This document shows positions 49,748 through 55,298 of a stretch of 64,000 nucleotides of DNA, piece after piece. This DNA is from Methylophaga sp. GTDB lineage: Bacteria > Pseudomonadota > Gammaproteobacteria > Nitrosococcales > Methylophagaceae. Position 1 is the stretch's first letter, and each line of letters starts with the position of its first letter. The DNA is taken from NCBI GenBank assembly GCA_002706095.1, contig PAJP01000021.1, positions 248,001 to 312,000 of the forward strand, read 5' to 3'. The notes under the pieces are model-generated. The model made no database searches and had not been told where the DNA came from. It saw only the letters and a list, made by a program, of their open reading frames with translations. The position numbers were made by a program, and so were the translations under genes.

Positions 49748-50866
<1,119 letters not shown>

Positions 50867-50888
50867 TGATTTTTAGTTAATAAGTCGT

Positions 50889-50927
50889 AAGACCTTTGCG
50901 AGTGTTATGCATTTGCGAAGGTCTTTT
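50889..50927 (+). terminator. Terminator or attenuator hairpin between mreB and mreC
   Basis: AAGACCTT (50889-50896) and AAGGTCTT (50918-50925) pair perfectly. The stem continues inward through a T-G wobble and two G-C pairs, leaving a loop of about eleven bases. TTTT ends it, followed by AG and another TTTT. It lies 22 bases after the mreB stop and 19 bases before the proposed mreC start, so partial termination would lower mreCD-mrdAB relative to mreB. Confidence 0.7.
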
Positions 50928-50945
50928 AGTTTTGGACGTTGAGTT

Positions 50946-51848
50946 ATTAAACCTTTATTTGCCCATACACCTTCTTTAAACACCCGGATGCTACTGGCGC
51001 TTGTAGCCTCTATCATGGTGTTTTTCCTTGATACGCGTCTGGATTACTTCAAACCTGTGCGTTCTTTGTTGTCAACGGCAGTCTATCCTGTGCAGGCGGC
51101 GGCATCGCTTCCTACAGATTTGAGTGAATGGGTCAGTGATTTTTTTCAGGATCGTAAACAATTACGAGAAAAAATTACCGTCATGGAAGCGAATAATATG
51201 TTGCAGAATATTCGCTTGCAGAAACTGCAGTCACTCGAACGAGAAAACATGCGACTCAAAGAGTTGTTAGGTTCATCATTTCGTCTGCAAGAACGTGTTC
51301 AAGTAGCAGAATTGCTGACCATAGATCTTGATCCTTTTTCTCAACAAGTCGTGATTGATAAGGGTGAAAATTATGGTGTGTATGTCGGGCAACCGGTGTT
51401 GGATGCCACAGGGGTAATGGGGCAGGTGACCGAAACCTCTGCCGTATCAAGTCGTGTTGTGTTGTTGACCGATCCAAGTCATAGCATCCCTGTTCAAATC
51501 AATCGTAATGGTCTTCGGGCTGTGGTCACGGGCCGAGGTTTAGGCGAGTACCTTCAAATGGATTTTCTACCACATAATGCGGATATTCGAGAAGGCGACT
51601 TATTAGTCACATCAGGGCTTGGTGGTCGGTTTCCTGTTGGCTATCCGGTAGGTAAAGTGGTATCCGTTGAGTTTCCTCAAGGTAAACCATTTGCTGATAT
51701 CAAAGTGGAGCCAGCAGCCAAGTTATCCACAAGTCGTGAAGTGATGTTAGTTCTGCCAGGCGAAAAAATTCAAACAGAGCGCACAACAACGAAACCAGCT
51801 GAGGAATCGTCATCAACCACGGAGGTCGACAGTGGCGACGACAATTAG
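50946..51848 (+). CDS. mreC: Rod shape-determining protein MreC, apparently with an ATT start
   Basis: MreC is a bitopic membrane protein that links MreB to PBP2: a membrane helix (about residues 15-33), a coiled coil (about 75-110), then beta-barrel domains with D-P-F-S-Q-Q-V-V-I-D-K-G and V-T-S-G-L-G-G-R-F-P-x-G-Y-P. From ATG 50988 it has 286 residues and lacks the conserved N-terminus. The frame stays open back to TGA 50940-50942, and the codons from 50946 read I-K-P-L-F-A-H-T-P-S-L-N-T-R, matching the M-K-P-I-F-S-R-G-P-S-L start of E. coli MreC. No ATG, GTG or TTG lies in that stretch, so ATT 50946 (300 residues) is the likely initiator. GGAC at 50934 is a weak ribosome-binding site. Confidence 0.85.
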   Translation: MKPLFAHTPSLNTRMLLALVASIMVFFLDTRLDYFKPVRSLLSTAVYPVQAAASLPTDLSEWVSDFFQDRKQLREKITVMEANNMLQNIRLQKLQSLERENMRLKELLGSSFRLQERVQVAELLTIDLDPFSQQVVIDKGENYGVYVGQPVLDATGVMGQVTETSAVSSRVVLLTDPSHSIPVQINRNGLRAVVTGRGLGEYLQMDFLPHNADIREGDLLVTSGLGGRFPVGYPVGKVVSVEFPQGKPFADIKVEPAAKLSTSREVMLVLPGEKIQTERTTTKPAEESSSTTEVDSGDDN

Positions 51849-52311
51849 GACCCGTAATGGTTTTGTGATTGTTATCACGCTCATCATTTCCATTATGTTG
51901 ATGCTGGTGCCGTTACCAGATTACGCGCGTTTTTTCCGGCCGGAATGGGTAGTGATGACACTCATTTACTGGGCGATGGCGTTGCCTCATCGTGTCAGTA
52001 TTGGTGTGGCCTGGTTTACAGGCTTTGTCATGGATATCACCATGGGTGGGATATTGGGTGTGATGGCTTTCAGCTATGCACTAGCTATTTATTTGATAGC
52101 ACGTTTCCATTTGCAGTTACGTCAATATCCACTTTGGCAACAAGCCTTAACCATTTTTTCTGTTGTGCTGTTGGTGGAGTTTGTTGATGTTGTCGCTACT
52201 CGAGCAACGTTGCACTGGGAAAGCTGGATGCCCGTGCTAACAAGTACGCTGTTATGGCCGGTGATGTATGCGATTCTGCGTAAAATTCGCCGTACATTTC
52301 AGGTAACGTGA
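51832..52311 (+). CDS. mreD: Rod shape-determining protein MreD
   Basis: A 159-residue polytopic inner-membrane protein with five to six helices. Conserved pieces are L-P-D-Y-A-R-F-F-R-P-E-W and G-F-V-M-D-I-T-M-G-G-I-L-G, typical of gammaproteobacterial MreD. The start is GTG at 51832, with GGAGG (51821-51825) at ideal spacing, and it overlaps the 3' end of mreC by 17 bases. It joins MreC and the RodA-PBP2 pair in the elongasome. Confidence 0.93.
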   Translation: MATTIRTRNGFVIVITLIISIMLMLVPLPDYARFFRPEWVVMTLIYWAMALPHRVSIGVAWFTGFVMDITMGGILGVMAFSYALAIYLIARFHLQLRQYPLWQQALTIFSVVLLVEFVDVVATRATLHWESWMPVLTSTLLWPVMYAILRKIRRTFQVT

Positions 52312-52318
52312 ACGTTAT

Positions 52319-54172
52319 ATGGCTTCAAAGTTTACGCTTAAAGATCATTTTCGTGAGAGTCGCCTTGTAAACGGACGTTTGTTATTCGCTGGTCTACTGT
52401 CAGTGATTATTTTTAGCATCGTGATCTTCCGGTTAGTGTATTTGCAAGTGTTTGAATATGAACACTTTGATTCACTCTCAGACCGTAACCGTGTGGATAT
52501 CGAGCCATTACCGCCCCAGCGGGGACTCATTTACGATCGTAACGGGGTCTTGCTGGCTGAAAATATTCCAACATTCAGTTTGGAAATGGTACCTGAAAAA
52601 GTCCCCAATCTTGATGAAACCCTGCATGAGTTGAGTCAATTACTCGCTTTGTCTGAGGAGGACATAGAGGCCTTCAAGGAACGTATGCAGCGTCAGCGCC
52701 GCTTTCACCATGTCGTGATCCGGCAACGACTCACAGAAGAAGAGGTCGCTCGCTTCTCTGCTAACCGTTATCGTTTTCCTGGTGTGGATATCGAAGGTCG
52801 TCTGATACGACATTATCCACAGAATAACTTGTTTGCACATGCTGTTGGTTACGTTGGCCGTATTAACGAGCGTGATATGCAAATCATCGATCAGAAAGAC
52901 TACAAAGGGACTTCTCAGATTGGTAAAACAGGCATTGAAAAGGAATACGAAGATAAACTACATGGCAGTGTGGGCTACCGTCAGGTAGAAACAAATGTTC
53001 AAGGCCGTATTGTACGTGAACTTCTGTCTGAACCCTCACAGTCAGGCGATGATTTATATTTAAACCTGGATATTAACCTGCAACGTGTCGCAGCGACATC
53101 ATTGGGGGACTACAATGGCTCAGTGGTGGCGATTGACCCACGCAATGGTGGGGTTTTAGCGCTAGTGAGCAAGCCTGACTACAATCCGAATTCATTCGTT
53201 TCAGGTATCAGTAGTAAAGAATACGGGGCGTTGAGGGATTCGCCTGAGAGACCGTTGTTTGATAGAGCGCTTCGTGGTCACTATCCACCTGGTTCGACAC
53301 TTAAACCTTTTGTGGCCTTGGCAGGACTGGAACTGGGCGTTGTCAATGAACGCTCTAAAACCTATTGTCCTGGATGGTATAGCTTACCAGGCAGTAGTCA
53401 TCGTTATCGCTGCTGGAAAAGTTATGGCCATGGTATGGTTGATATGAAAGATGCAGTAGCTCAGTCTTGCGACGTATATTTCTACGATTTGGCTCATGCG
53501 CTGGGCATCGATCGTTTGCATCATTTTCTTGATTATTTTGGCTTTGGCCATCGCAGCGGTATCGATTTACCCAATGAAAGTGAAGGTTTGTCACCATCGA
53601 GTGAATGGAAACGAGCCAGTCGAAATCAAGCGTGGTTTCCAGGTGAAACATTGATTTCAGGAATAGGCCAGGGCTTTAACCAAACTACACCCGTTCAGCT
53701 GGCTCATGCTACAGCGACACTGGCTATGCGAGGCATCTCAATGCAGCCACAAGTGGTGAGGGCAAGTCGCCCGGCTGGGCAAGCAGATATGAATCTCAGG
53801 AACAGTGAGATTATGAACAATCTGCCAATGCAAAATAGTCAAAACTGGGAAGCCGTCGTGCAAGCCATGGTTGAAGTGATCCACGGAGAGCGGGGTACAG
53901 CCAGATCAGTGGGGAAAGACATGCCTTTTAAAGTGGCGGGTAAAACAGGGACAGCCCAGGTATTCGGCATAGCACAGGATGAAGAGTACGATGCTGAAAC
54001 TCTGGAACGAAAGCTCCATGACCATGCTTTATTTATTGCCTTTGCTCCAGCCGATAAACCCGAGTTTGCTGTGGCTGTTGTGGTCGAAAATGGGGGGAGT
54101 GGTAGTAAAGTAGCCGCACCTATTGCTAGAAAATTAATTCAACAGTATTTTGGATTTGAAGTCGATGAGTAG
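52319..54172 (+). CDS. mrdA: Penicillin-binding protein 2 (peptidoglycan DD-transpeptidase)
   Basis: A 617-residue class B PBP with an N-terminal membrane helix (about 20-43), a pedestal domain (R-G-L-I-Y-D-R-N-G-V-L-L-A motif near residue 63) and a transpeptidase domain. The nucleophile is Ser326 in P-G-S-T-L-K; the second motif is S-C-D, as in PBP2 of enterics; the third is K-T-G-T-A. It cross-links new glycan strands during cell elongation. The stop overlaps the rodA start by eight bases. Confidence 0.96.
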   Translation: MASKFTLKDHFRESRLVNGRLLFAGLLSVIIFSIVIFRLVYLQVFEYEHFDSLSDRNRVDIEPLPPQRGLIYDRNGVLLAENIPTFSLEMVPEKVPNLDETLHELSQLLALSEEDIEAFKERMQRQRRFHHVVIRQRLTEEEVARFSANRYRFPGVDIEGRLIRHYPQNNLFAHAVGYVGRINERDMQIIDQKDYKGTSQIGKTGIEKEYEDKLHGSVGYRQVETNVQGRIVRELLSEPSQSGDDLYLNLDINLQRVAATSLGDYNGSVVAIDPRNGGVLALVSKPDYNPNSFVSGISSKEYGALRDSPERPLFDRALRGHYPPGSTLKPFVALAGLELGVVNERSKTYCPGWYSLPGSSHRYRCWKSYGHGMVDMKDAVAQSCDVYFYDLAHALGIDRLHHFLDYFGFGHRSGIDLPNESEGLSPSSEWKRASRNQAWFPGETLISGIGQGFNQTTPVQLAHATATLAMRGISMQPQVVRASRPAGQADMNLRNSEIMNNLPMQNSQNWEAVVQAMVEVIHGERGTARSVGKDMPFKVAGKTGTAQVFGIAQDEEYDAETLERKLHDHALFIAFAPADKPEFAVAVVVENGGSGSKVAAPIARKLIQQYFGFEVDE

Positions 54173-55298
54173 TAGCCTGCTAAGCGATAGAAGAAAGCCG
54201 CATCAGTGGCAATTCTCCACCATGTTGCGGCGATTTCATATCGATCCTCTTTTGTTACTCGGCCTGCTTGTTTTGTTGGGTGCAGGATTAATGATGCTGT
54301 TCAGTGCTGGTGGGCAGGATACTGGCATTATTATTCGTCAGCTGGTGAGAATCGGTATGGCAGTGACGGTTATGCTAGCGATAGCTCAGATTGATCCTGA
54401 CCGACTTCGCGATAATGCTTATCTGCTTTATGGCTTCGGCTTGGTTTTACTTATTGCTGTGTTGTTGTTTGGGCATGAGGGAAAAGGCGCTCAGCGTTGG
54501 TTGAATTTAGGCTTTTTCCGGTTCCAGCCTTCAGAAATTATCAAGTTGGCTGTACCTATTCTGGTAGCAGCCTATATTGCTGAACGGCCATTGCCTCCAT
54601 CCACATGGCGTATTCTCGTTGGGTTAGTGTTAATTGGTCTGCCGGCGTTCCTTATTGCGAAACAGCCTGATTTAGGTACGGCTATTTTGATTGCCAGTTC
54701 TGGGCTGATTGTCTTATTTTTAGCCGGCATCAGTTGGAAAATTATTATTGGCTTTTTAGTCTCCTGTGCCTCTGCTGCTCCTGTACTGTGGTATTTCATG
54801 CACGATTATCAACGCCGCCGCGTGCTGACTTTTCTCAATCCGGAAAATGATCCTTTAGGCGCCGGCTATCATATTATTCAGTCAAAAATTGCTATTGGCT
54901 CTGGAGGCTTATTCGGTCAAGGATGGCTACAGGGCACACAGTCGCATTTAGAGTTCTTACCTGAACGTTCTACAGATTTTATTTTTGCTGTGATCTCAGA
55001 AGAGTTCGGTTTGGTCGGTGTCGCAATTTTATTATTTGTTTATTTACTGGTCGCTAGCAGAGGACTATATATTGCCAGTCAGGCTCAAAGTAGTTTCGCC
55101 AGACTGCTGGCAGGAAGTATTTCTATTACTTTCCTTGTCTATGTGTTCGTTAATGTTGGGATGGTAACAGGATTGTTACCCGTTGTAGGGGTGCCGCTGC
55201 CCCTGATCAGTTATGGGGGCACGTCAATGGTGACCCTGCTGGCAGGCTTCGGTATCCTGATGTCTATTCATACTCACCGAAGGATGATGTCACCGTGA
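54165..55298 (+). CDS. mrdB: Peptidoglycan glycosyltransferase RodA
   Basis: A 377-residue SEDS-family polymerase with ten predicted helices. The conserved F-Q-P-S-E-I-I-K-L and K-Q-P-D-L-G-T-A segments are present, the latter followed by E-N-D-P-L-G-A-G-Y-H and G-V-P-L-P-L-I-S-Y-G-G-T-S. It polymerises lipid II together with PBP2. ATG 54165 is preferred over TTG 54150, since it lies closer to the end of mrdA and gives the usual short N-terminus. The TGA overlaps the GTG of mltB. Confidence 0.96.
   Translation: MSSSLLSDRRKPHQWQFSTMLRRFHIDPLLLLGLLVLLGAGLMMLFSAGGQDTGIIIRQLVRIGMAVTVMLAIAQIDPDRLRDNAYLLYGFGLVLLIAVLLFGHEGKGAQRWLNLGFFRFQPSEIIKLAVPILVAAYIAERPLPPSTWRILVGLVLIGLPAFLIAKQPDLGTAILIASSGLIVLFLAGISWKIIIGFLVSCASAAPVLWYFMHDYQRRRVLTFLNPENDPLGAGYHIIQSKIAIGSGGLFGQGWLQGTQSHLEFLPERSTDFIFAVISEEFGLVGVAILLFVYLLVASRGLYIASQAQSSFARLLAGSISITFLVYVFVNVGMVTGLLPVVGVPLPLISYGGTSMVTLLAGFGILMSIHTHRRMMSP

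Follow-up and report, generated by a model that had tools for sequence, protein, structure and literature searches.

The mreC gene in the 64-kb stretch of Methylophaga sp. DNA analysed here ("the window") very probably starts at an ATT codon and, as judged from sequence comparison, AUU, AUC or AUA (collectively "AUH") is the prevailing and long-maintained mreC start in Gammaproteobacteria. In the following, ATG, GTG and TTG are referred to as standard starts, and the codon aligned with ATT 50946 of the window is designated the mreC column.

The mreC start region of the window

The mreC frame of the window runs from TGA 50940-50942 through GTT 50943, ATT 50946 and the codons AAA CCT TTA TTT GCC CAT ACA CCT TCT TTA AAC ACC CGG to ATG 50988, translating from GTT 50943 as V-I-K-P-L-F-A-H-T-P-S-L-N-T-R-M. 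As the original prediction had claimed, no in-frame ATG, GTG or TTG is present from TGA 50940 to ATG 50988, and an open reading frame listing with standard start codons puts the mreC start at 50988. Since TGA 50940-50942 is in frame, an in-frame start farther upstream is impossible. The 5' end of E. coli K-12 mreC reads ATG AAG CCA ATT TTT AGC CGT GGC CCG TCG CTA (MKPIFSRGPSL), so that ATT 50946 sits on the E. coli initiator codon; the alignment thereby also bears out the predicted correspondence with the initiator Met. The features of the start region are the following:

50934-50936, + strand: weak Shine-Dalgarno-like GGA, 9 nt before ATT (duplex energies in the family have a median of only -3.3 kcal/mol)
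50940-50942, + strand: in-frame TGA, two codons 5' of ATT (a stop at exactly that distance in 36/55 family loci)
50946-50948, + strand: putative mreC ATT initiation codon, at the column of the E. coli initiator Met (ATT/ATC in 55/55 family loci; onset of purifying selection; class-wide AUH)
50946-51848, + strand: mreC, 300 codons, from ATT to TAG (TIGR00219 match; PDB 7eft match)
50949-50987, + strand: conserved N-terminal codons KPLFAHTPSLNTR, which are absent from the product if the start is ATG 50988 (family pN/pS 0.25 versus 0.94 just upstream)

The extended product is MreC according to a profile search (TIGR00219, E 5e-63, residues 6-275, 212.9 bits against a cut-off of 92.75), and it matches the solved MreC chain PDB 7eft from residue 1. 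This assignment also fits the gene order, with mreC lying between mreB and mreD.

Conservation and coding constraint in Methylophagaceae

Across 55 Methylophagaceae loci, the mreC column holds ATT in 35 cases, ATC in 20 and ATG in none, with the first two bases invariant and the third either T or C. In 51 of these loci, the stretch from the in-frame stop to the conserved N-terminus offers no standard alternative to the AUH codon. The codon preceding ATT/ATC is not conserved (GCC, ACC, CCG, CTT, GTC, GTT and others). Coding constraint, expressed as pN/pS, amounts to 0.94 over the nine codons upstream, 0.25 over codons +1 to +13 and 0.38 over codons +14 to +59, and the step falls exactly at the ATT codon, which implies that the downstream mreC codons are translated and that nothing before ATT is translated in this frame. 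Together with the 55/55 occurrence of ATT/ATC in the family, this sharp onset of constraint lends strong support to the ATT start that had been predicted.

Start codons across Gammaproteobacteria

For a view beyond the family, 146 mreC loci outside Methylophagaceae, unselected and drawn evenly from Gammaproteobacteria, were compared as a class sample. At the mreC column, these carry ATC (40), ATT (29), ATA (17), ATG (19), GTG (2) and TTG (1), the remainder being unalignable or other; this corresponds to 86 AUH codons and 22 standard starts. Of the 86 AUH loci, 68 lack any standard start in the interval from the upstream stop to the conserved motif. Eight further loci have a slightly displaced AUH codon, approximately 17% of the sample (25/146) have a standard start elsewhere or an unalignable column, and in five a recognisable mreC start is absent. 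When counted by families (n = 109), 62 are AUH-only, 19 use a standard codon at the column, and the two never occur together in one family; what had been viewed as a local oddity of this genome is, thus, the condition of more than half of the sampled families. Likewise, 55 of 80 named mreC loci have AUH without a standard alternative. The codons that replace AUH at the aligned column are mostly other starts (ATG 19, GTG 2, TTG 1), while Val/Leu codons are few (e.g., GTT 2); hence, the column behaves as an initiation codon and not as an internal isoleucine.

Among named genomes, the 5' end of Pseudomonas aeruginosa mreC reads TAG GAG CGG ATC ATC AAA CCG CTA TTC, with an ATC start, and in P. putida, P. 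fluorescens and P. viridiflava GGAGGAGCGGCTT or AAGGAGCGGCTT precedes ATT AAA CCG. Methylobacter, Thiorhodococcus drewsii and Candidatus Thiodiazotropha also have AUH at mreC, while ATG occupies the column in E. coli, in E. coli-like loci and in Aeromonas. The GenBank mreC coding sequence of P. aeruginosa (L344, CP123788.1, 219-267) starts at a GTG lying 48 bases, or 16 codons, downstream of the ATC. Although labelled a "plasmid", the 1131-bp record resembles a piece of chromosome.

A few loci depart from both kinds of start. Two from another family of the same order (L201, L202) have TAT at the column and neither ATG/GTG/TTG nor AUH from the in-frame stop to the motif, with TGA directly before TAT in L202. 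GTT is found at the column in L168, L245 and L078; L168 lacks both a standard and an AUH mreC start and has a strong Shine-Dalgarno sequence (CGGAGG); perhaps a GUU start is used there.

The same method was applied to other genes and groups. For infC, it returned ATC/ATT starts across the class, as in mreC, including in the genome of the window (L218), where ATC comes right after an in-frame TAG (TAG AAC ATC GCT) and is served by a GAGG Shine-Dalgarno sequence. A lack of a standard start was found in 0 of 172 mreD loci. In 20 mreC loci from outside Gammaproteobacteria, the N-terminal motif is unalignable; a standard start precedes the aligned region in 19 of them, and the last has just a TTG at the region's edge. 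A class-wide artefact of the method was rejected on the basis of these mreD and non-gammaproteobacterial mreC results.

Locus counts are counts of sequences and not of independent events; on the tree, at least 10 exchanges between AUH and a standard start have occurred at the mreC column (272 loci), with AUH as the majority state. Among the 247 loci with ATN, the third base has undergone at least 64 changes, with a minimum of only 7 to or from G, while at four nearby fourfold sites of the same comparison 28-31 of 40-84 changes involve G; this points to selection against G at the third base. On this comparative evidence, the mreC start is one that has been kept non-AUG through long divergence.

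Shine-Dalgarno sequences

Outside Methylophagaceae, 96% of 121 AUH mreC loci have a Shine-Dalgarno duplex of -4 kcal/mol or stronger (median -6.5) at a spacing of 4-8 nt, mostly 5-8 nt, as compared to 41% of 27 orthologues with ATG at the column (median -3.2; P = 7e-7) and a background of 20% inside the gene. The mreB start was dropped as a control for spacing, the aligned Met being in some cases different from the true start. E. coli mreC combines its ATG with almost no Shine-Dalgarno sequence. The contrast between AUH and ATG loci suggests that Shine-Dalgarno strength and start codon compensate each other, as if mreC output were held at a set point. Methylophagaceae are an exception to the class pattern, with only 10% of loci reaching -4 kcal/mol and a median of -3.3; consequently, efficient initiation at ATT is explained less well there than in Pseudomonas. 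The window's own assembly yielded no 16S tail; in a same-species genome it is the usual ...ACCTCCTT.

Operon context

Around the start region, the window contains the following elements:

49820-50866, + strand: mreB, the upstream gene, with an ATG start; 79 nt gap to the mreC ATT
50889-50925, + strand: intrinsic-terminator-like hairpin of 17 bp in the mreB-mreC gap, with TTAGTTTT after it (compensatory changes in the family)
51832-52311, + strand: mreD, with a GTG start at 51832, its own GGAGG at 51821-51825 and a 17 nt overlap with mreC
52319-54172, + strand: mrdA (PBP2), downstream operon gene
54150-55298, + strand: rodA, downstream operon gene

The hairpin, which the original prediction had not mentioned, shows compensatory changes at 8 of 13 consensus pairs among 33 Methylophagaceae sequences and probably causes a fraction of mreB transcripts to end there. 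A search of 50800-51100 revealed no sigma-70-type promoter. A mini-ORF at 50907-50942 (MHLRRSFSFGR), which is in frame with mreC, begins within the hairpin and is not kept in the nearest relatives. The original prediction had further proposed that MreD, PBP2 and RodA are lowered together with MreC through coupling; such joint lowering is hypothetical, as mreD, though overlapping mreC by 17 nt, possesses its own GGAGG and GTG.

Alternative readings

Translation from ATG 50988, with the upstream 14 codons left untranslated, would agree with the choice of automatic callers, for which this is the first standard start, and with the annotation of the P. aeruginosa record at the equivalent downstream GTG. 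It is, however, very improbable given the strong protein-level selection on the 13 codons between ATT and ATG 50988 and given that only about half of Methylophagaceae have Met at 50988, some having CTG, TTA or CTT as this codon; moreover, E. coli MreC contains the stretch corresponding to the codons upstream of 50988. Slightly less credible still is a start at GTT 50943, with ATT as an ordinary isoleucine codon at position 2. Ile is invariant at the column once the standard-start group is set aside, and ATT, ATC and ATA would be expected of a conserved isoleucine, too; yet the codon before AUH is unconserved and in one locus (L085) is a TAG directly 5' of the ATC, the Shine-Dalgarno spacing suits the AUH codon as the start, and in E. 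coli and the other ATG orthologues ATG stands exactly at the AUH column. Stop-codon readthrough or frameshifting out of an upstream frame is, in our view, a highly improbable route to the N-terminus. A possible source would be the mini-ORF, a short frame opened by ATG that shares the mreC frame and stops at TGA 50940. The nearest relatives (L003-L005) lack its ATG and have an indel in this stretch, the position and identity of the upstream stop vary freely among mreC loci, and the end of mreB lies about 80 nt upstream of the mreC start. An ATG-to-ATT sequencing or assembly error, raised as a possibility along with the original prediction, can be dismissed for practical purposes, because 54 other family loci have ATT/ATC and AUH recurs class-wide; the very same ATT is found in an independent same-species assembly (L059).

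A different kind of alternative accepts the AUH start as real, but has it kept for IF3-responsive regulation, as in infC, instead of for a fixed low rate. For infC, initiation at AUU is under IF3 control (as cited in PMC9410913), and a non-canonical start can tie output to the growth medium, as for S. aureus ccpN (PMC13009471). The freedom of the third base among T, C and A and the variable Shine-Dalgarno strength favour a set point over a specific switch, however, which makes this alternative unlikely, though of appreciably more weight than those above. The ATT start itself is common to both readings.

Proposed mechanism and relation to known AUH starts

The most likely course of events is that the ordinary initiator tRNA reads ATT 50946, giving a product that would begin (f)Met-Lys-Pro-Leu-Phe, and that the weak codon sets a low, fixed rate of mreC initiation. 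IF3 would discriminate against the codon-anticodon mismatch at the third base and, thus, MreC synthesis would reach a small fraction of the AUG level and be low relative to that of MreB from the same operon. In most lineages, a good Shine-Dalgarno sequence would offset the weak AUH codon in part, with AUG orthologues mostly having a poor one; in Methylophagaceae, where this sequence is weak too, the terminator-like hairpin should also lower mreC mRNA. The rate is assumed from infC, pcnB and ccpN and may be about a tenth of that from AUG, as in the S. aureus examples. By analogy with these genes, the low MreC output and IF3 discrimination of the original prediction are plausible, and we consider it likely that the weak AUH codon throttles MreC to a low output.

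To our knowledge, AUU, AUC and AUA starts are known for only a handful of bacterial genes. The closest counterpart of mreC is infC, which, in the same genome and across the class, also has a conserved AUH and no standard start from the stop codon to the conserved N-terminus. The two differ in that the infC product, IF3, regulates its own gene, whereas mreC is without a known tie to translation, and in that mreC has AUG in several lineages. The ATT start of infC in Xanthomonas is backed by proteomics (PMC5559785). In E. coli, the AUU start of pcnB limits expression (Binns & Masters 2002, as cited in PMC9410913 and PMC1780047); like mreC, pcnB is a non-translation gene with a weak start codon, but its AUU is known from E. 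coli, whereas the AUH of mreC spans most sampled gammaproteobacterial families and not the E. coli lineage. In S. aureus, ccpN (AUA) and cvfC1 (AUU) combine a conserved non-canonical start with a strong Shine-Dalgarno sequence, and reporters yield approximately 10% of the AUG output (PMC13009471). These are other genes in another phylum, demonstrated by ribosome profiling and reporters, while the mreC start is known from sequence comparison.

AUH starts are, therefore, of a known kind, and the best reading is that mreC is a further gene with a weak AUH start, alongside infC, pcnB and ccpN. Its membership is apparently unreported: a literature search that took in few subscription journals found no report of a non-canonical mreC start.

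Implications

Beyond the single gene, we tentatively suggest, as a possibility for which the case is nearly balanced, that AUH is ancestral and actively maintained in gammaproteobacterial mreC as a class-wide translational set point. Under such a set point, MreC, perhaps along with the entire elongation machinery, would stay low compared with MreB and depend on IF3 activity, and so possibly on growth rate; in the lineage containing E. coli the AUH start would have been lost, with a near-absent Shine-Dalgarno sequence instead.

The AUH start probably hides the true mreC start from gene finders and, if real, would account for the clipped MreC N-termini in annotations, such as the P. aeruginosa record that is short by 16 conserved residues. 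With mreC, a cell-shape gene, the AUH-start genes would gain a very widespread member outside translation, present in dozens of gammaproteobacterial families, Pseudomonas included, and the finding would suggest that the rod-shape operon contains a dosage device.
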